Source: Rhizodiscina lignyota (Eukaryota; Ascomycota; Dothideomycetes; Aulographales; Rhizodiscinaceae). Taken from it: a DNA stretch of 64,000 nt. Position numbers and translations under genes: made by a program. Of the stretch, positions 8,071 through 63,943 are shown piece after piece (position 1 is the first letter of the stretch; every line of letters begins with the position of its first letter). The notes below the pieces were generated by a model. The model was not told the origin of the DNA. It saw only the letters and a program-made list of their open reading frames with translations, and searched no databases. The stretch spans positions 248,001 to 312,000 of the forward strand of contig ML978137.1 in assembly GCA_010015805.1 (NCBI GenBank), in the 5' to 3' direction.

Positions 8071-8276
8071 AGAAAGCAACACTCGTTGCGAGCTCTCGTT
8101 GCCTTTTGGCTTAGATCAAGTGTAGTATCTGTTCTTTTCAGGTCAATCTCTGAAACCAGACTACGGACTCTAATTCAAGATTAATCGTATTCTTGTACCC
8201 GGACAGGTCTCCTCTGTGCACGCGTACGTCTTCTCCCAGTGTCGCCGGTATTCGCAAGAAAGAAACACTCGTTGCG
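8071..8276. repeat. About 20-bp direct repeats bracketing the U2-like sequence
   Basis: The 20 bases at 8071-8090 and at 8257-8276 match at 19 positions (AGAAAG, then C or A, then AACACTCGTTGCG). They abut the U2 5' end on the left and the point where U2 similarity stops on the right. This arrangement is what a target-site duplication from reverse-transcription-mediated insertion leaves behind. Confidence 0.6.
8091..8256 (+). pseudogene. U2 spliceosomal snRNA-like sequence, probable retropseudogene
   Basis: The 5' part reads GCCTTTTGGCTTAGATCAAG followed by TGTAGTATCTGTTCTTTTCAG, the near-invariant U2 5' domain that pairs with U6 and with the intron branch point (GTAGTA at 8122-8127). Stem IIa is intact: TTTCAG 8136-8141 pairs with CTGAAA 8150-8155. 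With base 8090/8091 as position 1, an Sm-like ATTCTTG (8189-8195, one change from ATTTTTG) and a GGTATTCGC resembling stem-loop IV (from 8247) fall within a base or two of their spacing in human U2. The sequence stops about 20-25 nt short of a full U2 and is flanked by 20-bp direct repeats, which favours a retroposed copy over the active gene; the substituted Sm site agrees. A genuine divergent U2 gene cannot be excluded. Confidence 0.65.
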
Positions 8277-9777
8277 ACAACAGCACAGCTAAGGCCTGGC
8301 ATGTCGCTGACTTACGTTTCCAGGACTCTGATCTCCGGCTTTTGGGCGAACAACCCGAGGAGGTCGGATCGACGTCGAACGCAGAGACAGGCACGCAGAA
8401 GTCATGGATTCAGTCTGTCCGACAGTCAATTCGCCTCCAATTGCTACTGGCCAACCACGCGTTGTTGAGTCAGTCCAACCAGTTTCTGGTGAAGCAACTC
8501 AGGGTTCTACGCCGCAGCCGCGCACTGCAGAGACTGTAGAGACAGTCCCAGCGGCGTAGGACGTATGCGAATACGTATGGGCATTGCCTCTTTTCTTGAT
8601 AGCGACAGCTTGTACAGCATCGGGAGGACATTGTTATTGAGCCTGGGATTGGGTCTGGTACCTCCGATCCAAAGTCTCAAATCTCCTTGTGCACGGTAAG
8701 CTCCACAGCGCCGGTACCTTTCGCTTCGGTGGACTTACTAACTGCTCAGTAGGGCGTTACGCTTAGCAGTGAAGATTCGTCTGAGCTCGCGTTTTGCTAG
8801 TTGAAAACTATTCATAGTTTGACTGCGAAACGTTGAGGAGCGATCTCGAGGCCGCTCATCCCACGCCCGAACAGGCTTGCGATATTGTACTGAAGTCGAC
8901 TCAATGATCCTCTACGACCTTATTAGTCCGCCTGAATGCGCGCACCGGCATGCTCTTCTTTCTGGGAATCACGCCATGATCCTCTCAGCGACTTCAGAAG
9001 AGCATTCGTATCAGACGCTACCTGCTGGTTCCGGCGAATACATACTTCACATGATCTCCTCTATGTTCTAGGGCCGGCGTATAGAAGCGATTGTCTAGTA
9101 CGGTGCGGACAGCCGTGAATGCGTGGATCGAACCATACCTCTCAAGTAGCTACGCCATACAATGATGGTGCTTAAGGAAGATGTTGAGATACTGTGGCGT
9201 TTCTTAAGCAACGAGGATCAGCGCCAGCGTAAGCTTTTTGCCGGCTTTCATCCAAATGCCAGGTGGAGTGAAGTTGGAACTCGAAGCTGGTGCCACAGTG
9301 CCACAGATCGATGTGAGTTGCTTATATCAAACAATGGATAGCTTGCTGATGGGCACACAGAGTCTAAATTAAAATTACATTCCAAGACCAACTGCCCAAC
9401 AGCTGCAGGATCTGTTTGCCTTGCACATATCGGAGATGGGGCAGCAGAAGCCGTGGCTGATATATGTTGACCTGAAAATGCAGCCCGACACCTGAATAAG
9501 CATGTCTCGCACAGCGGAGCCATGTAATTCTGATCCTTCTGTCTACGCCCAAACCAGATTTTGTCCTGCAGTCTCAGTCGCCCGAGACACAAGGTGCTAC
9601 GGTAGATGATAAAATACAGAATCTTCCTGACACTAGCGTTACATTGTTGCGGGTGCCTTGGGCTCGACAAGGCCTGAACCTCTTCCTCAATTTTCAGCGC
9701 CGCTACGATTTAAATACATTCCCAACTCATTTAAAGTGAGTGAAACCACATCGCAAGAAACCCGTTCAACGCACGAT

Positions 9778-45001: not shown

Positions 45002-47087
45002 ATACATTCGATGTTTGTAGACATTAGCGCTGGCGTTGGCGGCTTCTGGTACATATTGCATTTACAACACTGTCGTATGGGATGGATATGAAATTCAAAA
45101 GGTACACTAGGAATGATCTTGTTGTATATTATGGGAATGTACAGTACATAACTGATGGGAGCATATCCTAGAAGAGGGATGTTCCAGAGACGGACCTTGA
45201 TATTAATACCACAAACGTATCAGTCATAACTTTACCACCGGCGTAGAAACCGCTGTCTTTTGGTGGTTGGAGTATGGTTGCAACAGGAAGTAAGGAGAGA
45301 TTTGGGGGCATCTGGATTCGAGGCTGATGGAAAGACCACGAGTGGCTCAAATCCGGGGTGAGTCCGAGATGGTGATGGAGGCTTGAAGCCACAAAGCTTG
45401 ATATGTATGGGAGGTTATTGAGCCATCTTTGAAAGGGGGCCGCTTACCTGCAGTCTATGAGACATGTATATTGTGCCAGAATACCTGTGCGTTCGATCGT
45501 CGTATCTGCGCGCCATCACTTTGACAATGCCAGAAGAAATCTCCATAGGCGATTCACGTACCCTGCAGACTCCAAAGATAACGGGAGATTCTTATCGCAA
45601 CTATCTACGTTTCCCAGGGCTGAAGACCCTAGATCGTAGGTTTGAGACGGACGATCTCTTGTAAACTGCTTCATCAAACGGCCGCCCTGCATACATCCAC
45701 ACCTATGTACTCTGAAAATACTTCCGAGAAGCGCTCCCCAATCGCTAGGTTGGGTCTCGAGACAGCATCTCGAAGCGCTGACTCATTCCGAAATGGCAGC
45801 CTACTCTAAATTCCATCCAAGAAGATTTCGAAGGTGCTATTTCGAGCGAGAGAAGGTCGTGTGGTTCTCGAAGTCCCGGTATCTGGAGAGCGGGGGCTTT
45901 TTGGCGGTTCGCGCCGTCCAATCCGCTTCGTTGCGCACCAAACAAAGAACGTCGTGGAGGCCCACATGAAACACGGCACCCCTTCACCACCACTACCTTC
46001 AATCATCCTCCACCCGCGTCCATCTTCCGCGACATCGACGCACGGAGAGGTCGCTTGTCACAGAAGTGGTCGTGTGCGACGGAGAGAAAGCTTCTCGGCG
46101 AAAAGCAGAAGGTCTCAGATCGATTCTACCGCGAACCTCAGCGCCACACAAACATCGGCCACCGCTTTGGCCTCGATCCACTGACCCTGCAAAAGCCTGT
46201 GCGACTCGATGCCACTCCGACAACTCCAGTGTATGAGCAGCTCTGTTACGCGTGAGCAGGCGCGACGCTGCCGAGTCACTGCTTTTGATCCAGCGTGACA
46301 GTATTCAGGGAGGCTGTATCACCACCCTGAGTGGAGCAGAATTACCCAGGCCGGCTAAGATCGGTGCTCTTCATTCACCCAAGATTAGTGTTGAGAGCTC
46401 TAACACACGTTTGGCCGCCGCGATAAACGCCCAGAAGGCAAGATATTTCCAAACACCACCTGCGGCGCATGTCCGTGTCACCAGCGCGCGCGGAAAGAAA
46501 CGCCGCTTTGACGTTTCTGCCAAAATCGACTCGGAATGGCCCATTGGTCGTGGCTGCTTCCAGACTCCCCTACATGCTTCTCTACTCTGTCAGAGCGTTG
46601 CTGTGCTTGGCGATCCACTGGAATCTGTGCCTCGATTTTGGTGAACGTATTGCTCATAAGACCCCGCGCATACCCTTTGCTGCCGCGATAACGCGCAATC
46701 GCTCTGGTACGGTGGATCATGTGGCATTTTCATCGCTGCAGGACTTTCTTTTATCTGTAAATTTGGACAATGCTATTGTTCTTCACTTTCTCTCCTTCAG
46801 TTCACTTCTTTGGGCAGGCTCCCTTGCCATTATTCTTTCTTTGTTCTATTGTCACCATTCACATTGATTTGACAATAAGACCAGCCACTGCCGACTCACC
46901 ATACTATTGAGTGCATTCTTGCTATATTCTAGCATCTAACGATTTCTACGAAATTCCCCTTCCTTTATAACCTGCGACGTCTGCGACGAACAGCTTCCTC
47001 CCTTTTCCAGAGATATCGACATCTTGCGGGCTCAAGACAATTCGACATTACGACACCATTGCTTTAAAGATACCCGATAGAACGTTT
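45002..47087. other. Gene-poor interval, 2.1 kb
   Basis: Several short open frames (for example 46055-46255 ending TTPVYEQLCYA) lack domains or introns that would extend them. The last 200 bp, with CCTTTATAACC near 46960-46970, look like promoter and leader of the following gene. Confidence 0.45.
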
Positions 47088-48440
47088 ATGACCTTCTCTC
47101 GACAGCTCTCCTTCAAGATGCTCGTCACGACTTTGGCACTCCTCTCCTGCCTCTCCGGCATCAACGCTCATTCATGGGTCGAGCAGATGTACGTCATCAA
47201 GGATGGCAAGTACACTGGTAATCCGGGATACATGCGTGGCTACAACCCTCGCGGTCCCAGCTTCACCGACTCTCTCAATCAGAACCTCGTCCCCGCGCTA
47301 TCGAGCGGGCGCCTTCGCATCAGCGACGCCGACCCGATGTGCAAGTCCACTCAGCAGACATCGAACCAGACATCTGGCTACCCCAAGCTGAATGCCTCCC
47401 CAGGCGACATGGTCGCCCTCCGCTATCTCGAGAACGGTCACGTCACCCTCCCACAGAACCAGATCGGCAAGCCAGGCTCTGGCGGCACTGTCATGATCTA
47501 CGCGACATCACAGCCGAAACAAAATGAGAAGTTGACAGACGTTCTGCAATGGACTACAAATGGCACTGGCGGTGACAAGCGTGGGCAGCTTCTCACGGTA
47601 CAGAATTTTGATGATGGCCGCTGTTACCAGATCAACAGCTCCCCGATGTCTACCCAGCGCCAACAGGAGTTCCCCAACAAGCCTGCGGGTCAACCAAGCG
47701 CACCAAATGAGGAGATGTGGTGCGAAACAGATGTCCAGCTGCCTTCCAATATCAGCACGAACTCCGATCTGACACTGTATTGGGCTTGGCAGTGGAACAC
47801 GGCATCTGGCGCTGATCCGGGCATACCTAATGGCAAGGACGAGTGGTACACGAGCTGCATGGACGTCAACATCGCCGCACAGGGTCAAATCTCAAAGTCA
47901 AGTGTCAACCCTCCAAAAAAGCTGCTGGTCCAAGATCCGCAGCAAAGCGCCAACCCGCACGCTCAGCAGCGCTCCCAGAACATGACACTACCTGATGGAG
48001 GACCTGACGGCGGTGACGGCAACTTGGCCAACGCTGCTCCTATTTCCGGTAGCTCCTCTGGAGCAGCTGCTCCTGCGACTTCTGGAGGTGCTTCCTCCGC
48101 TCCTGCGGCCTCATCCGCCACCTCCCCTCCGTCTGCACCCTCTCCATCAGCCACGAGCATCTCCAACTCTCCAATGTTCCCTGGCCTCACTAGCGTCGCA
48201 CCAATTCCCTTCCCAACGAACGGCATCCCGCAGGTTCCTGCATCTCAGGCCCCTGCATCTCAACCCCCTGCATCCCAAGGCCCTCCATCTGCTGGCTCCA
48301 TTGGCGGCACCGGAGGCGCTCACACAATGACGCTCACGCAAATCCTTACCGTCACGTTCAAGGGCAAGCGCAGCATCGAAACGCGCACCGCGACCGTCTC
48401 GGATGTCGCAGCTGGAAAGCGCCGCAACATTTTCTCATGA
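47088..48440 (+). CDS. Secreted LPMO-like copper protein (His-brace, DUF7492-type)
   Basis: A single exon of 450 aa. A signal peptide ends GINA, leaving HSWVEQMYVI as the mature N-terminus. An N-terminal histidine of this kind, plus the internal His in LENGHVTLP, could form the copper histidine brace of lytic polysaccharide monooxygenases. The N-terminal domain (about 28-285) has paired cysteines (DPMCKS, GRCYQI, EMWCETD, TSCMDV) and ends in DEWYTSCMDV. A Ser/Pro/Ala-rich, probably O-glycosylated linker with ASQ-repeats (VPASQAPASQPPASQGPPS) leads to a basic tail (VTFKGKRSIETRTATV). LPMOs cut crystalline polysaccharides oxidatively outside the cell. The internal ATG at 47118 gives a more compact signal peptide. 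Activity is not provable from sequence. Confidence 0.82.
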   Translation: MTFSRQLSFKMLVTTLALLSCLSGINAHSWVEQMYVIKDGKYTGNPGYMRGYNPRGPSFTDSLNQNLVPALSSGRLRISDADPMCKSTQQTSNQTSGYPKLNASPGDMVALRYLENGHVTLPQNQIGKPGSGGTVMIYATSQPKQNEKLTDVLQWTTNGTGGDKRGQLLTVQNFDDGRCYQINSSPMSTQRQQEFPNKPAGQPSAPNEEMWCETDVQLPSNISTNSDLTLYWAWQWNTASGADPGIPNGKDEWYTSCMDVNIAAQGQISKSSVNPPKKLLVQDPQQSANPHAQQRSQNMTLPDGGPDGGDGNLANAAPISGSSSGAAAPATSGGASSAPAASSATSPPSAPSPSATSISNSPMFPGLTSVAPIPFPTNGIPQVPASQAPASQPPASQGPPSAGSIGGTGGAHTMTLTQILTVTFKGKRSIETRTATVSDVAAGKRRNIFS

Positions 48441-54178: not shown

Positions 54179-55031
54179 CTATTGTCCATGGATACCTGTG
54201 AGTTCTTCGAACGGAGCATAAGTTATACCATGATATGCTGTCTCAATAACAGTCACCCGATTCGCGTCTAATACTTCGGGCGGCATCTGCCCTAGGCGTC
54301 CCAGAATCACTTCCATCTGGTCCAGGTCGCCGTAAGTTAGCTCGGGGAATCCAGGGTGGTCATTCAAGATGTCGCGGTAAACGGCGCGAAAGTCATGTTG
54401 AGTTTTGAAGACGTTGTCGATGAGATCTCGTATCTCGTCCTTCCGTTGAGGCAGCTCCGAGATTGGGCGGCGTCGTGGAGTTGCAGTGCGGGAACTTTGA
54501 GATGAAACCTTTTGCTTTTTATGATATGATACTGCGGTCTCTGCCTCGATAGCATCGTCGAGATGCTTTGAAGGTGTGCGCGTTTGCTGGGGGTGACCTC
54601 GCCGAAGCCGCTTCCTTGGCCTTGACGGTTCAGAGTCTGGTTCGCTCGTAAGATCGATTACTTCCTGTGATTGTTTAGCAATTGCAAGGCTGTTATCTGA
54701 CAATATAGCTCACCGTATCCCGTTCAGAACTAACGCCTTCTTCACTTTGGCCATGCAGAGTATCCTGGAACACGGCAAAGATGACTTCCGTAGCAGGTGT
54801 CACCACTACTGATGACAGCTTGTCTCGTGGTGAGATGAACGGGCCGCCAGCGCTGCCAAGGCGAAGCTTGAGGTTGCCTTTGTTGATCAGATGTTCTTCG
54901 ACGGCTCGAGTGCGGATCTCTTCGAGGAAGGTGGATACAAGTGCATCGGACTGAAACGGAACCAGGAGAGAGATATCGTTTGGTTCGCCTGATTGCTGTG
55001 CATTCACGATCGTAATCGTGTACCGCTCCAT
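54179..55031 (-). CDS. Tandem-family member C: UBL-like N-terminus with SUMO-interacting motif
   Basis: Exons 55031-54714 and 54664-54179 give 267 aa. The shared domain occupies about residues 1-90: ERYTITIVNAQQ, ISLLVPFQSDALVSTFLEEI, RTRAVEE, LKLRLGSAGGPFI, RDKLSSVVVTPATEVIFAVF. Immediately after the splice comes EVIDLTSEPDSEP, a close match to a SUMO-interacting motif (hydrophobic core VIDL, then acidic/serine), followed by the basic patch RPRKRLRRG, a good nuclear localisation signal. The C-terminus is helical (RKDEIRDLIDNVFKTQHDFR, DLDQMEVILGRLGQMPPEVL). The combination of ubiquitin-like-looking domain, SIM and NLS suggests a nuclear adaptor in ubiquitin/SUMO signalling, but that is inference. 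Confidence 0.72.
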
Positions 55032-55404
55032 GTTGAGCAGGGAGCAAAGGAATGGTGTTAGTGTGGTGGGCAAGTTGTGGCAAGATAAGCGCAGGATGAA
55101 GGGCAGAAAGTATTATAGAGCTAAGAGGTGAAACAGGGGGAAATAAACGTTAGAATGATGAAGTAAATCCCAGACGTCTATTCATCTAGCAGCATACCCT
55201 TCACTGCCGGAAACCATGTGAAGCTTCTGATTCAAAAGCGATAGCTTCACTCCTCAATCCCCCCAGTTCGCCATTTGTATCACCTAAGTGCCTTGTCATT
55301 CCATCTGACGACTATCCCGCCAAGTCCACTAACACGGCTCAGGCTCTCCACTTCCTACTGTGCGGGAGATGATTCGGTTTCGCGCGTGCATGGTAGGCTA
55401 CAGC
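55032..55404. other. Intergenic spacer in the tandem array
   Basis: 373 bp; leader of member C and 3' flank of member D. Nothing else seen. Confidence 0.5.
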
Positions 55405-55870
55405 TCAACAACTGTTTTTGGCAGTATTATCGGGTGGTTCCGCCTCATCACTAGGACGAGGAGAGAGACCAATCTTGCCAACTCGCGAAGCCTGTGCCAG
55501 ATTAGGACACTTATTCTACCATGGTGAATATTTTGAATGAGCATTTCCTGCCGCGCAATTCGGCGAAGAGGAAAATTGAGTAAGACAGGTGCAGGCATAC
55601 CGTAGTAGCAAAGATCTCATATCTTACAGGCACACCGACGATATCTGCGAGGAAATCATTCTCCCAGACAAGGGGTCCATCTTCGCAGCCAAGACGGAGA
55701 ACGAAACGGTCGTGCTTTGTGAGGATGCCTATTTTGACTGCGCGAGACTGAACTTCATCGTGTAGCTCCTTGAAGGTTCGGTTAGGATAGAAGGAAATCA
55801 TCATAGAATCCTTCACCACGAATGCGTTGTCTTTGTGGACGATGAAGTTAACTTTGTATGGCTCCCGCAT
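55405..55870 (-). CDS. Tandem-family member D: nearly stand-alone UBL-like domain, 118 aa
   Basis: Exons 55870-55601 and 55491-55405. The first exon carries the whole shared domain: EPYKVNFIVHKDN, DSMMISFYPNRTFKELHDEV, QSRAVKIG, FVLRLGCEDGPLV, NDFLADIVGVPVRYEIFATT. The proposed 109-nt intron uses a GTATGC donor and a CCTAAT branch point 5 nt before GGCACAG, giving a short hydrophilic tail (KIGLSPRPSDEAEPPDNTAK). A nearer acceptor (GCGGCAG) also keeps an open frame but gives a less protein-like tail. It is the shortest copy and lacks the helical C-terminal region of its siblings; truncation or the ancestral form are both possible. Function unknown. Confidence 0.62.
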
Positions 55871-58047
55871 CGTGCTAGATAGAGAGTTGAGGAGCAGAGA
55901 GAGGGATGGATTCATGCACCGTTTAACATAGCAGCGGTCTGCAACAAAGAAGCTCGGTAGGCCGCGTTAGTCCGCCAGAGATGGATAGACTAGGTCCCGC
56001 GGATCCGCTATTATATCGGATCATTAATGTCGTTGAGTGCAGGAACGGAAAGCGTGTATTGACCGACAGATGGCCGCGCTGAGAGATCAAGGCCGCTCTC
56101 GTTTGGATGTGGCCGTTCTCGTTTGGATGTGGACTTCTGTCCCATCCCACAGGACACTTGAATTAACATGCCATTACTACCAATGCTCTTAATTCCAGAA
56201 GAAGCTTGGTCTTCTCACTCGTCCCGTTAGCACTAGGTGTGCCCATCGTTCACATATTTGTGACCGTGCCGTATTCACGACATAGGACGTGCAGATGCAG
56301 TTCTGCGGCACTCAACTTGATATCAAACGGCAATAAGCTGTATGATATCATGTTGTCTCGCGAAACTGCATCATGAGCCCCACGGTGGGCTGTCCCATAG
56401 GATGAATCCTGTCTGGCCGGAGCTGCTTGATTCAGGGTTATCCAGCTACAGCACACCATGGGTTACCCATTGGTGTCCTTTTGCTGCGATGTTCCTGGCT
56501 GCAGGGTCCTGCCGACTGTATCAGAGCCTCCGTCGGTGAAAGTATGTGCTTGGAGCGATAGTGAAGGTTTCAGGGATGAGGGGGCCGACGACCTCGTCAA
56601 CTAAGTTCTCCTATGCGAATAGGTCAGCGAAGTTGTCTAAGCATGCACGTATCGGACGAAGTCCTTACAGAACTGAGCATATGCGGCGACTGACAGAGAT
56701 GCCTTGATACAAGTCACGTCTCCAAGTCCCGTCTCGGAGAGTACATGGATTTGGGAGTAGACAGGTTTCTCCCATGCCGAAGTTTCCCCCACTCATCACC
56801 ACTTCTGCAACTTTTGTCCAGCTACAGAAAAGTCTCGATGAATTCAGTATGGATCCCAGACAGTGTGTACGATTTCCAACATGATCTTCAATACTCTCCC
56901 GGCAGAGCTACGCTACATAGGTGTCTATGAGTTCGCCTTTCCCAACGACGCCGAATGAGTGCATCCCCGTCCCGGGCGGCATACAATAATGCGGCTCGTT
57001 ATTTCATTAGGTCTCAATTGTCTCGAGTAGGTCGATGATTACACCTGAAGTGCCTAGCTATGCTCTATGCCACGTTAGAGACAGCTTTCTTCTGCCATTA
57101 CTCAGTCAGGATCTATCACGACGCCCTTCAAGTCTGTTATGAGACAAGCTAGATGCGTACGTAAAAGACCGTATTCGCATAGCTGGTGAAAGAAGTATCT
57201 CGCGTGATGCCAGAACTGCTAGTTTGAGCTGTAGTGGAAAGGAATGCTGTGGACCTTCGATGGGCGTGGTAATTGACACAACTCGGCATGGAAGTATCAC
57301 TGCTGTATATCTCAACACGCCAAGTTCCTCAATGAGCTCCGAGGTGTCTGCAAAGACGCATAGATGATAAGGTCGACCTCGCCCTCGTGCCGCCCAAATG
57401 CACAACCTCCGTACAAGTCAGCCCAGTGACTAGAACGTACTGTGATGACTGAAGTCTGATATTTCCTGCGGCATCTTGAAGCAACGATAAATCCAAGGCG
57501 ACTCAGAAACAAGGCAATTATGTACATGCACGTCAGCCCCGCCAATTCAATTCTGTAAAAACCACCAATCGGAAGTAACTTTAGCTGCAAGGAGGACGAA
57601 TAGAAAATACAGACCCACTGAATATTTCCACATGACCTTAAGAGCACTCATTGGTGGTAACTGGGCGAAAGTCACATTCGCGGGGCGTATCAGAACGTGA
57701 TGCATTTGCGAACGAAGGGGGACAGTCGGGCGTATATTTCAGTGGAGCTCAATGTACTCTGCCTGGCAAAATAATCTCATCCGATATCGCATTTTATCAT
57801 CCTGACTGACTTGTGAGCAAGGCAAAAGGCAACTGGGTTCCAGTGAACATGTTCCGGACTTCGCGACTCACGGTCAGAAGGTATCGAGAGGGGAATCCTG
57901 TGAATGGGGCGTAGAAGGCAGAATGAATAAATTCCTCGACAAAGATCATCGCTTCCATCCATGATCTCTTAGCTGATTCGTGCTTGCTTCGGTATTGGCA
58001 AGGCTCTTCGCGGTTGTCACTGTATTTTGGTCCTTCCTGTGAGAGTC
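55871..58047. other. Gene-poor interval with gene relics
   Basis: At 56250-56349 (minus) a fragment reads MISYSLLPFDIKLSAAELHL, recalling the strand-helix part of the tandem family. At 56881 (plus) FNTLPAELRYIGVYEFAFPN resembles the start of fungal F-box-like proteins, with a stop soon after. A 16-bp unit (TCTCGTTTGGATGTGG) occurs twice in tandem at about 56097-56135. No intact gene could be built. Confidence 0.4.
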
Positions 58048-59085
58048 ATGTCCAGTAAGACAATATCTGAAATGTGCGCGCACAACCGATGCTAACGCTC
58101 TACTAGGCTCTTGCAGGTCCTTAAATTGTACACGAAAAGCAATTCCATACTTTTACTTTTGCGACTATCGTAAGTTTCGTGAAGTTGTTTTAGTTACCCA
58201 CAATAGTGGAGTATATGCTAAGCGTCCATTTCGACAGACATTTGCAGTGAGTGCAATTGCTCACGCGAGCGATGGAACGGGAAGAAATTCTGCAACTATC
58301 GTAAGTATATGATCGATCTGATCTACATTGTATCGAAGCCCATAGCCCTTACTCGAGCTAATCCATAGCTTTGTCAGACTGTTCCGACTCAAACATCTGT
58401 CGGTGGGATGGCATTGAAAGATGCGACATGAGACGTAACAGTCCAAGCCACTTTTGTGGATCTCGTATGTGTATTGCACATTGGAAACAAACTTGGGGGC
58501 CGAGAACTATGTGAACTAATCCGGACCGTACAGATATCTGTCTAACCAAAAGATGTACGTCGAAGCGGAAGCCTACCGGCGACTATTGCGGGAATCGTAA
58601 GTAGTATCTTGGAAGGGATTCTGCCGACACAGGGATAACTTCGTTCTCCAGACACCTGCAATCGCCCTGACTGCAAAGCGGAGAAACACGAGAGTTATGA
58701 TTATTGTTCAGATCGTAGGTAGTGAGCAATACTGGTGTGAAATCATATGCTAAGCCCGCCAGACTGGTATCAGCCATGGAAAGATGAAGGAAAGAAATTG
58801 ATGAAGAAGGGAATAAAGAAGGGCCTACAGAAGTGCCTTGAACACTTCACCGATCGAAGCCAATCACACGACTACGACAGTAATAGCGGGGAGATAGATG
58901 AAGTCTCCGAGGATGATAACCAACAGAACTTATATCGATATGACCGAAACAGTACTTCTGGATACGATGACCAGCATGAAGGTCACGAGTACAATAGCTG
59001 GCATAGAGAAGATAGATATAATAATCGGCAGATACAGTATGAGTATAGAGGGGATCAGAGATACTACGAGTATTACAGGGAGTGA
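58048..59085 (+). CDS. Cysteine-rich exon-per-repeat protein, 225 aa
   Basis: Seven exons: 58048-58054, 58107-58169, 58238-58300, 58369-58464, 58534-58596, 58652-58714 and 58763-59085. All six introns (48-69 nt) are phase 1. Exons 2, 3, 5 and 6 are each exactly 63 nt and exon 4 is 96 nt; each encodes one cysteine module closing with [FY]-C-x2 just before the splice: SCRSLNCTRKAIPYFYFCDY, HICSECNCSRERWNGKKFCN, HICLTKRCTSKRKPTGDYCG, HTCNRPDCKAEKHESYDYCS. The pattern is H-x-C-x4-C-x9-[FY]-C-x2-H, likely a zinc-binding or disulfide motif. Exon 1 supplies only Met-Ser plus one base. The last exon gives a lysine-rich helix (KDEGKKLMKKGIKKGLQK) and a low-complexity Tyr/Asp/Arg/Asn tail (YEYRGDQRYYEYYRE). 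There is no signal peptide. The start exon is the least certain part. Function unknown. Confidence 0.75.
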
Positions 59086-60025: not shown

Positions 60026-61117
60026 CTAGCTAGTCGATCCGACATCCAACACACTGTCCACGCGTGACTCGTGTTTGCACAGTCTCCCTTCAGATTGATG
60101 TCTCTTTCTCAACTCCAAGAAATGTCCAACAACACTTCGGACCTGCTCGTCAAACCCAGTAAACTTGAATTTAAATGCCCACTCGGTTTCGCTTGTGTCC
60201 ACTTCCATCTTAACGGTGTTTACTTCCCCGGATTTCGGTAAGGGCGCGTCCGGGAAATCTCTCTCAACAACGGTTTGGACGTCGTTCCAATGTGATGGTT
60301 GGCTGAGTACGTAGCTTCTGTTGCTCGGAACGTCCCAGTCCAATGCGCGTACGTGGGCCATTGCAACGTCCTCGTTGTGTACAGTGGCGCCGATGAAGGT
60401 CTCGAATGTTTGGCCGAGTGCGATCCCGAGCACAATACCATTTGTGCCGTTCAGAGCTTCCCTGGGACATGTTGCAAGGTCGTTCCGCCCTTCAATGAAG
60501 GAGGGATGAAGATATGTGACGTCGAATGAAGGTGCGTTCATGTCCATCCATAACTCGGCGGCTTGGAGTGCCGCGACTTTCGATGCTGCATACGCTGCGA
60601 ATTCAGAGGGATAAGGCCCAGTGTCCAAAGGGATACGATCTGTCGGTAGAACTGGCGCAATGACTTCGTCCTGGCCTTCCAGAACCTCAAAGGGAATGAG
60701 TGCCGAGATCGAGCTTGTGATCACGACACGTCGGACACGGCCGCTGCGTTTCGCGGCCTCCAGGATGCCTAGGGTGCCAGCAACGGCTGGACGAATGAAG
60801 TAGTCACCATAGACTACAGCGTTCACCTTATTTGATGTTGCCAGAGGAGATGCGATGTGAATGATGAAGTCGCAACCGCCCACGACCTTGTCAAACGCGC
60901 CGGATTCGGTGATGTCTGGGACGATTACAATATCAAGGCGATAGCCTGGAGAGAGCGCTATGACAGAAGGGTGAGCTCGTATAGATGCTGCTTTTTGTTC
61001 TGATCGAACGGCTGCGCGGACGCTGTAGCCTTCCCGGAGCGCATGGAGAAGCGTTTGAAACCCAACGTGACCGGTCGAGCCAGTCAAGAGAATTGTGGGC
61101 ATAGCGTCGATGGCCAT
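60026..61117 (-). CDS. NAD(P)-dependent epimerase/reductase (cinnamoyl-CoA reductase/Gre2-like extended SDR)
   Basis: An intronless frame of 363 aa from the ATG of MAIDAMPT. The Rossmann motif ILLTGSTGHVGFQTLLHALR opens the fold (GxxGxxG). RAAVRSEQKA determines cofactor preference, and the Arg suggests NADPH. CDFIIHIASPLA, VVITSSISAL and YAASKVAALQAAELW supply the active-site Ser and the Tyr-x3-Lys. Such enzymes reduce aldehydes, ketones or hydroxycinnamoyl-CoA esters in the cytosol. The C-terminal tail beyond FLELRKRHQSEG is unusual and probably dispensable. Codons upstream of the chosen ATG are open but have no earlier ATG. It stands isolated between two gene-poor stretches and inside an inverted repeat pair, so recent local rearrangement is possible. 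Confidence 0.88.
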   Translation of the reverse strand: MAIDAMPTILLTGSTGHVGFQTLLHALREGYSVRAAVRSEQKAASIRAHPSVIALSPGYRLDIVIVPDITESGAFDKVVGGCDFIIHIASPLATSNKVNAVVYGDYFIRPAVAGTLGILEAAKRSGRVRRVVITSSISALIPFEVLEGQDEVIAPVLPTDRIPLDTGPYPSEFAAYAASKVAALQAAELWMDMNAPSFDVTYLHPSFIEGRNDLATCPREALNGTNGIVLGIALGQTFETFIGATVHNEDVAMAHVRALDWDVPSNRSYVLSQPSHWNDVQTVVERDFPDAPLPKSGEVNTVKMEVDTSETEWAFKFKFTGFDEQVRSVVGHFLELRKRHQSEGRLCKHESRVDSVLDVGSTS

Positions 61118-63943
61118 TTGTGGGGTATAAGGTTGGGTATCACTTTTAAAGAGCGATAAAATAAAGCGCAAATAAGAGAATCAAAGACAATTGATGTTGA
61201 GTCAGTGAGACTTCCATAAGGACAATGGTGATATAAAAGGTATTGATGAAATGTTGTGTTTCATTATGCTGCCACTACGAGTCTAGAATTTCATGCATCT
61301 CCGACGAAGGAAAAGGCCGTGCAGTTGAATTATGGATACATTGCGACGTGAGTACGCGGCATTGAGACTGCTTACCGACACGGCCGGTGAGTTCTATGGT
61401 TGCGGCTATCCACTAATGTCCCATGAATTTGCAATTGAAGCACTAACTCTCCAAGTTGTTAGAGTCGAGGATAGTGAAAGGCTGAGAGGTGTTCGTACCC
61501 AGATGTCTCGTTAGCCACAAGCCATGTCTCATTTAGGCCTAGATCGGTAATGGCACGGTGCAGTCCCACGCACTTGACGATAGAGTATTCTAGCGCTTGA
61601 TGTTAGCTGACGATGTTAGCTGGACCATGGCGCATCGCAGTACAAAAAGAGGTCCTTGCTCCCCTATCGTGAGGAGTCACTACTATCCGTATACGGTGTA
61701 TGCGCCGTGTCTGCATCTATAGTGTGTGGTTCAGGCCCAATAATCTGGATAAATGAATCTGTACGATCGCTTGTAGTGCCATAGCTGTAGCCTACAGACA
61801 ACCACACTAAGAACGCTGTGGCTTTGTGGGGTGAGTGCACGGCTTTGCTGTAACCAATACATTAATAGTCGCACAACGCTCGCCTTTCAGAACAGCGCCT
61901 CGGTCGGGTTGGCTTTGTGGAGAGGTATCCACTCTGCCTTGTAGGTTTAGAGTCCTCGTTTAGCGTATTGTCCGCCAGGCTAAGGCGAAGGTAGCTGAGT
62001 GGCATCCAGACCCTTTGAAAAACGTATTTGGAATTTTATAGTTACTGCTGTGAGGCCAGCTCGGCGGCATGCCCACTTGATGGTGAAGTATCGAACACTA
62101 GCATAAGAAGCTCAACGTTAGCACGCTACACGTCGAAACATACATCTCTGAGGAGAGAGAACAGTAGTTGTGAAAGTACGAAGGGTTTGTATTCAGGTGA
62201 GCGAGAGATCGCGGTAAAACTCCGGTGTAGCGCACGCTCGCTGAAGTGGACATTCGTCTCTTATTTTTCCATCGTACCTCTCAAGCTGGGCAACAGAATT
62301 GATCTTCGGAACCAATGATCAGTAAAGACATTTGAAGATGTGGGGGGCAACGGAAAGTCGAGAAACTGTGAATATACCCGCCTTACTTCAAATTTCCTTG
62401 TCTGAAGTGTAATAAGTATCATTCAGTTCGAGCGTTGTCGAATTCAAAGAGCGAAAGAGCACGTGAGGTTTCTTTTGATGCCAAGGTTTCGCCTTCTCCA
62501 AGACGATCAAACGTTGGCGGGATCTACACGGCAAAGGAAAGGGGTGATCCATGTTCAGCCGATGAGTTGGCAGAAGCCTTGAACGGGGGTTGCAGCGTGA
62601 CAAGCCAATCACACTGCATACAGACGATGTAGGGTTCGGATCGAGGCAAACCGCCCGACAGCCTCAGTCCAATGTAAAGACAGAAATAGCCTCCGAGCAA
62701 AACCTCACCTGCACCTGCCTGACTCTGAATCTGACAACGAAGAAGGGTCCAAGTGTGGAAGAACTTGTGTGGAAGCACGATAAAGGAGGAGGTGGGGTCT
62801 GTCGGTGTGATAGGCATGTATTGTATAGGGGACGCTGCAGTAGGACGACTGTGAGACTTCCAATGATCTTTTGATTTTCGAGAACGGCAGAAGAAGACAA
62901 TGGTATGGCAAAAGCGTTACGCAACGTGCGCTTGCCAGCATTGCAAACGGCCAATGTGCATGGGTTGGGGCAGTTGGTGCATCGTGGGCGTGATATTGTC
63001 GAGTCTGGCCACGAGGGGTGGCTCGGTGGAGACGAGAGAGCGATTGCCACAGCGTAGTCGAAGTGAAGAAGAAACTGTTCTGAAACAGACTGTGTACATG
63101 TATGTAAAAGCGGTGAAGAGAGACGAACTGGCGCACGGCGGGATCGTGACATGGGCGGCGGGTAGCCCAGTGCAACCGGCCGCGGCGCGAATCAAAGGTG
63201 AAATTGGCTCCATTGCCTCCATTGCACAGCTTCGCGCTCGCGGGACTGAGGCTCAGAAGCGACGGGTGTGTTCGACGAGCGGCCAGTCAGACGGGCGCAA
63301 AGAGGGCAGAGCGAAATCCAGGTTGCCGCTCCTGTGAGAAAGGTGGTTTGCGCAGGCTGGGGTGCCAAGCCAAGACGTGTGCCAGCATTCACAAAGTTCA
63401 ACATCAGCTCCACCAAGTATCGAGCTCGCCACTCCAAACTTCCCATCTCGCAACAACGTCGCCGTGGGCTCATTGCGCGCCCGTCATTTTCACTGCAACC
63501 ACTTGTCCTCTGGCAATTGGCAAATGACGACAGCGCACGGCGGCCGCTTTGCGTGAGGTGGCTGGTCCGATCACCCAACCTCTCTTCCACAACTCAGCCC
63601 GCAAGCAACGAGCCCGGGCCACAGATCTCTTCCAACATCTCTTCTCTCATCCCGGAGAGGATCACACCTTCTACCTCCTCATCGGATAGCGTGGGTGAGC
63701 AGCGTCGGTACCCGCCAACTCTCCACTTTCGTCGACGAACTGCTAACGCTGCCTGATTCTTGCAGCACGCTTGCAGCTCGACTGCTGTGTAACTCGAGCC
63801 TGCCCTCACGCCTGTTTACTTCTGAAAAGTCGCATCACCCTGGTTCGACCGTCAAAGCGTCGAGCTCTTCTCGCAAACAACAGACGCTCGTCTAAGCTGC
63901 CTCTCATGTCTCGAGTGGCACAGCGAGCGTAGAGAGCTTCACG
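61118..63943. other. Gene-poor interval, 2.8 kb
   Basis: Holds the promoter of the epimerase/reductase gene, the right arm of the inverted repeat (61915-61934), and from about 63550 a CT-rich stretch resembling a long 5' UTR of a gene entering from the right edge. Open frames between 62400 and 63700 overlap on both strands and have no recognisable content. Confidence 0.45.
61915..61934. repeat. Right arm of a 20-bp inverted repeat pair
   Basis: TTGTGGAGAGGTATCCACTC, exact reverse complement of 59367-59386. The preceding GGTTGGCTTTGTGG echoes GCTGTGGCTTTGTGG about 100 bp upstream (near 61817), so the GGCTTTGTGG core is locally repeated. Confidence 0.45.

Follow-up and report, generated by a model that had tools for sequence, protein, structure and literature searches.

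In Rhizodiscina lignyota, a single gene on contig ML978137.1 appears to have been built exon by exon. We read it as an ascomycete protein-coding gene whose product would be small and probably intracellular, with C3H-type zinc-binding modules, five in tandem, that would have arisen by old exon duplication, and on the sequence evidence we give this reading a probability of about 0.65. The best-known cases in which each domain has its own exon, flanked by symmetric phase-1 introns, are extracellular proteins of animals. The present gene seems a genuine, if modest, instance of such gene building, and would be a clear one for an ascomycete whose introns are short and whose genome is 33 Mb, with a presumed metal ligand rebuilt across each junction. 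It would be a tidy system in which to ask whether introns ease the gain and loss of modules in fungi, and whether exons of this kind are ever skipped under intron-defined splicing.

The stretch analysed (hereafter the window) is 64,000 nt long, and we reconstructed the gene model from its sequence, one base at a time. The gene lies at 58048-59085 on the plus strand and has seven exons of 7, 63, 63, 87, 63, 63 and 323 nt, which splice to a CDS of 669 nt, a single open frame that ends in TGA and encodes 222 amino acids. The six introns (52, 68, 77, 69, 55 and 48 nt) all have GT-AG borders. An initial annotation had proposed one cysteine module per exon over five consecutive exons, four of them exactly 63 nt, with every intron in phase 1; rebuilding the spliced gene reproduced both the module exons (exons 2-6) and the phases (6/6). 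The parts of the gene are as follows.

58048-58054, plus strand: exon 1, ATGTCCA, with the start codon, a single Ser codon and base 1 of the codon split by intron 1
58055-58106, plus strand: intron 1, phase 1, 52 nt, GTAAGA...TAG, with a branch-like GCTAAC
58107-58169, plus strand: exon 2, 63 nt, module 1 (C-x4-C-x9-F-C-x2)
58170-58237, plus strand: intron 2, phase 1, 68 nt, containing ATATGCTAAGC, common to introns 2 and 6
58238-58300, plus strand: exon 3, 63 nt, module 2, preceded by the last part of the module 1 His codon
58301-58377, plus strand: intron 3, phase 1, 77 nt
58378-58464, plus strand: exon 4, 87 nt, the irregular module 3 (C-x5-C-x7-C-x9-F-C-x2, four Cys), preceded by the last part of the module 2 His codon
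58465-58533, plus strand: intron 4, phase 1, 69 nt
58534-58596, plus strand: exon 5, 63 nt, module 4, preceded by the last part of the module 3 His codon
58597-58651, plus strand: intron 5, phase 1, 55 nt
58652-58714, plus strand: exon 6, 63 nt, module 5, preceded by the last part of the module 4 His codon
58715-58762, plus strand: intron 6, phase 1, 48 nt, containing ATATGCTAAGC, common to introns 6 and 2
58763-59085, plus strand: exon 7, end of the module 5 His codon, a predicted basic helix, an acidic Tyr/Asp/Glu-rich tail and the stop codon

Exons 2, 3, 5 and 6 each encode three cysteines in the arrangement C-x4-C-x9-[FY]-C-x2, followed by a histidine. Module 3, in exon 4, is 8 residues longer than the others and has four cysteines, so that the five modules hold 16 in all. 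When the five are aligned, the C, C, C and H columns are invariant, the aligner pairing the first Cys of module 3. As had been proposed, [FY]-C-x2 stands one base before the donor in every module (5/5), and a histidine is present at all five module ends. The suggested spacing of 8-9 residues between Cys and the aromatic residue proved to be 9 throughout (5/5). The proposal that the following exon supplies H-x-C is correct for exons 3, 5 and 6 and wrong for exon 2 (S-S-C), exon 4 (H-C) and the last exon, which brings H without Cys.

Introns 2-6 split the His codon as C|AY, with the donor after the C and the acceptor before the AY. The two bases 5′ of these donors are TC in five of five, the acceptors are followed by AC or AT, and from exon 3 onward each exon bears the last part of the preceding module's His codon. 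Each exon would thus complete the His ligand of the module before it while bringing its own cysteines, and a complete module end would be remade wherever a module exon is spliced to a later one. By script, we placed every subset of exons 2-6 between exon 1 and exon 7. All 32 were open to the same stop, and every kept module ended in [FY]-C-x2-H (32/32), because the His codon is split in this way. The earlier claim that exons can be skipped without damage to the frame (exons 2-6 are all phase 1-1 and multiples of 3 in length) is thereby confirmed and exceeded, since the His ligand is regenerated as well. Retention of any single intron introduced a premature stop (6/6).

These 32 open arrangements with complete module ends would also suit programmed exon skipping that yields isoforms with differing finger numbers. 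We regard this as distinctly unlikely, however, as frame symmetry comes from exon duplication alone and exon skipping is a priori rare in fungi. Skipped exons are reported to make up 3% of fungal alternative splicing events, against 61% for intron retention, and their low frequency is put down to intron definition (PMC3925392); in F. graminearum, exon skipping is given for 4 genes and intron retention for 211 (PMC3577648). It is similarly doubtful that the split His codon is a maintained device, in which selection would keep C|AY and phase 1 so that skipping or unequal recombination gives arrays of complete fingers of varying length. Were that so, the gene would be a combinatorial zinc-finger gene in a fungus.

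Splice sites and Cys codons can be fitted by eye, and the array might then be a chance assembly or a decaying pseudogene. No homologue was found (see below), module 3 is irregular, and the branch motifs of three of the six introns are non-canonical, all of which would suit that explanation. The strict CTRAY motif is present in introns 1, 3 and 4 (3/6), and introns 2, 5 and 6 have GCTAAG, GATAAC and GCTAAG instead, which is weaker than in Fusarium core genes, where CTRAY is given for 91% (PMC5677156). Nevertheless, a strict 63-nt module pattern with its splice sites occurred four times in the window (exons 2, 3, 5 and 6) and in none of 200 dinucleotide shuffles, and the spliced frame is open over 669 nt; we therefore consider chance or decay very unlikely. 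A relaxed pattern likewise gave four matches in the window, against a mean of 0.03 and a maximum of 1 over 200 dinucleotide shuffles. A search beyond the gene was made over 264 kb (the window plus 20 stretches of 10 kb from the same contig). The relaxed pattern recovered the four window exons and one other match (locus L018), which looks like chance, and the search found no contiguous modules. There was no relaxed match in the 8-kb stretch just past the window, and a scan of both strands of the fetched genome loci found no two adjacent modules in one frame.

Several features support the proposed exon-level modular origin: five junctions share the same codon position and phase, TC precedes donors 2-6, and an 11-mer is common to introns 2 and 6. 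The 11-mer, ATATGCTAAGC, is identical at 58213-58223 (intron 2) and 58745-58755 (intron 6), and lies around the presumed branch site, where the motif would be CTAAG and not CTRAY. Sharing of an 11-mer by these two introns was seen in 0 of 1000 dinucleotide shuffles and, when a branch-like motif was kept, in 10 of 1000. By BLOSUM score the four regular modules are alike beyond Cys and His (20,000 permutations, module 3 left out), with p 0.00085, rising to 0.023 when the aromatic column is dropped. Identities between them are weak, with 12 observed against 6.9 expected (p 0.045, or 0.12 without the aromatic column). In core genes of F. verticillioides, 172 of 534 introns are given as phase 1 (PMC5677156), from which we calculate a probability near 0.001 for six of six if phases are independent. 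The simplest account of the modules would be an old tandem duplication of one exon together with its phase-1 intron.

Alternatively, the gene might first have been repetitive and free of introns, with introns then inserted separately at one and the same codon. The next-longest stretch common to any two introns is just 7 nt and exon DNA identity between modules is only 47-57%, as targeted gain of this kind would allow. It would, however, take about five independent events at one position of a 63-nt unit, and gained fungal introns are reported to have no preference for insertion site or phase (PMC532390), which makes five independent gains at one codon position unlikely. The 11-mer common to introns 2 and 6 also speaks against it, and we think targeted gain improbable. 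Under the preferred duplication of exon plus intron, the low exon identity implies that the event was not recent, and the divergence of the introns would reflect great age.

The initial annotation had recognised no known domain. At the Pfam cut-offs that holds, but the module can safely be said to have the geometry class of atypical C3H zinc fingers, as in zf-C3Hc3H, TRM13, WRC and WRKY19. The general C3H arrangement, three Cys and one His at regular spacing, is exact in four of the five modules, module 3 differing in its four Cys and its spacing. The whole protein had no significant Pfam match (MCP-like_PDC_1 0.03, zf-C3Hc3H 0.057, zf-TRM13_CCCH 0.085, WRC 0.8). The module region alone gave E-values of 5.4e-5 for zf-C3Hc3H, 0.0043 for zf-TRM13_CCCH, 0.06 for WRC, 0.096 for MCP-like_PDC_1 and 3.6 for Diedel, all under the families' cut-offs. 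MCP-like_PDC_1, an unrelated bacterial sensor family, outranks zf-C3Hc3H once the tail is included (0.03 against 0.057). As a control, the modules were shuffled 19 times with Cys and His fixed, and in 10 of these with the aromatic residue fixed too. None of the 19 matched zf-C3Hc3H or zf-TRM13_CCCH. Four matched other families: FAM195 (0.054; Cys and His fixed), CTD1 (1.1), and WRC (0.087) and Zf_WRKY19 (7.1e-4), both from shuffles with Cys, His and aromatic fixed. The best shuffle E-value (7.1e-4) lies roughly one order of magnitude above the best real one. Much of the family match is thus down to Cys/His spacing, and the WRC match of the real sequence (0.06) does not rise above noise, given that a shuffle reaches 0.087.

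Of the individual families, zf-C3Hc3H (PF13891, described as a potential DNA-binding domain) comes closest. Residues 5-28, which are module 1 and the start of module 2, align to its profile, scoring 23.8 bits with the module region and 14.2 with the whole protein against a gathering score of 27. This best stretch covers positions 1-25 of 62, so that only the first part of the profile is matched, and the gene differs in having five tandem modules, one per exon. The family occurs in KANSL2/NSL2 and INO80D. zf-TRM13_CCCH (PF11722) resembles the modules in the second half of its finger (best stretch residues 79-95, E 0.0043; 17.1 bits against a gathering score of 20.9), but this protein has no methyltransferase match. 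Zf_WRKY19 (PF24906; gathering score 27 bits), a family with tandem fingers in plants and oomycetes, was matched by the spacing-preserving shuffle at 7.1e-4 and not by the real sequence, for which no match was listed. The WRC domain, present in plant GRFs and in HRT, a repressor of barley, has the spacing C-x9-C-x10-C-x2-H and is likewise an atypical C3H finger, with the same second spacing of 10 (counting the aromatic residue) and the same C-x2-H end; plant WRC fingers are reported to bind DNA, and some GRFs to have more than one (PMC7380329). On the same count, four of our modules are C-x4-C-x10-C-x2-H and module 3 is C-x7-C-x10-C-x2-H with one extra Cys before it, so that the first spacing is 4 (7 in module 3) and not 9. 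The module region scores 13.5 of 28.6 bits against WRC, which is a plant family. The likely role of the array of putative zinc-binding modules would be to bind nucleic acid or a protein partner.

Outside the modules, a single-sequence structure model of the last exon has a helix at model residues 4-31 (net charge +5), followed by a tail of 75 residues, acidic and rich in Tyr, Asp and Glu (net charge -11), that is of low confidence and predicted to be disordered. The pLDDT is 81, 90 and 82 in the first three blocks and 42-51 in the rest, with a mean of 57.1. The protein begins MSSSC, without a hydrophobic leader. A script searched for other first exons (any ATG at or after 57300, joined to exon 2 by one intron of 40-500 nt with a phase-1 GTRNR donor) and returned a single alternative, the ATG at 57904, which encodes 'MG'; within these criteria, no candidate first exon carried a hydrophobic leader. 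On this ground we favour a putative intracellular metal-binding protein over a secreted, disulphide-bonded one.

High Cys content, orphan status and small size are usual for secreted Cys-rich fungal proteins, whether effector-like or of the cell wall. The present protein has all three, and its 16 module cysteines, an even number, could pair by count. Besides the lack of a leader in either first exon, the histidine kept at five of five module ends and the best family matches, which are C3H zinc fingers though under cut-off, point away from a disulphide-bonded protein that does not bind metal, and we judge secretion unlikely.

No homologue was found among 5.8 billion proteins, a collection in which a control query showed fungal proteins to be present. 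There was no match in the PDB by sequence or by module profile, none in NCBIfam, no relative in viral contigs, and none by tblastn among the 12 stretches of prokaryote genomes that matched a pattern. In this genome (33.4 Mb, 29 contigs), a protein query that detects the gene itself found no second copy at E <= 10. Such absence is weak evidence, because word-based searches miss a module of only 22 residues in which few positions are fixed. Tandem [FY]-C-x2-H-x-C modules occur in proteins of Pezizomycotina, and the module as such is therefore perhaps not new. Among the literature matches listed, titles and abstract openings held no recognisable description of an exon-per-finger architecture in a fungus.

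Family-profile searches of the same genome returned 14 matches (PF13891 1, WRC 2, TRM13 3, Zf_WRKY19 8), all under cut-off and rejected as relatives. The silence of these searches means little, as all four missed the window's own gene. We inspected the translated contexts of matches L011-L015 and L037-L044 and, on the correct strand for minus-strand matches, those of L005, L014, L037, L039, L040 and L042. L012 has a single SYCKSH, half-module-like and within a short frame, which we take as chance, and L037 and L041 resemble C2H2 fingers in our own reading. These two C2H2-finger-like genes, on contigs C6 and C20, have near-identical fingers, CDF[PA]DCQRSFVRQDLC[AV]RH, and L041 also has a homeodomain-like stretch, WFRNTR, recognised by eye.

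Among the genes seen nearby there was no hint of a function shared with the five-module gene. It is followed on the opposite strand by a reductase-like gene of the Epimerase family (60029-61180), and the window also contains an HMG-CoA reductase with an HPIH domain. For a DUF7492 protein at 46971-48437 (plus strand), the protein collection gave 469 relatives (E <= 0.001), the best of them 66% identical. The names shown among the best 120 of the 469 are fungal, the nearest named being from Rhizodiscina lignyota at 54% identity; we take those named among the best 120 to be ascomycetes, many of them Dothideomycetes. Two minus-strand frames, 54696-55112 and 55514-55966, have no Pfam match at E 0.01 and encode proteins that are partly alike by eye (LRLG...GP), and may be tandem duplicates. 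The window also holds a U2 spliceosomal RNA gene at 8089-8286 (plus strand), with a score of 82.9 bits (gathering score 46).
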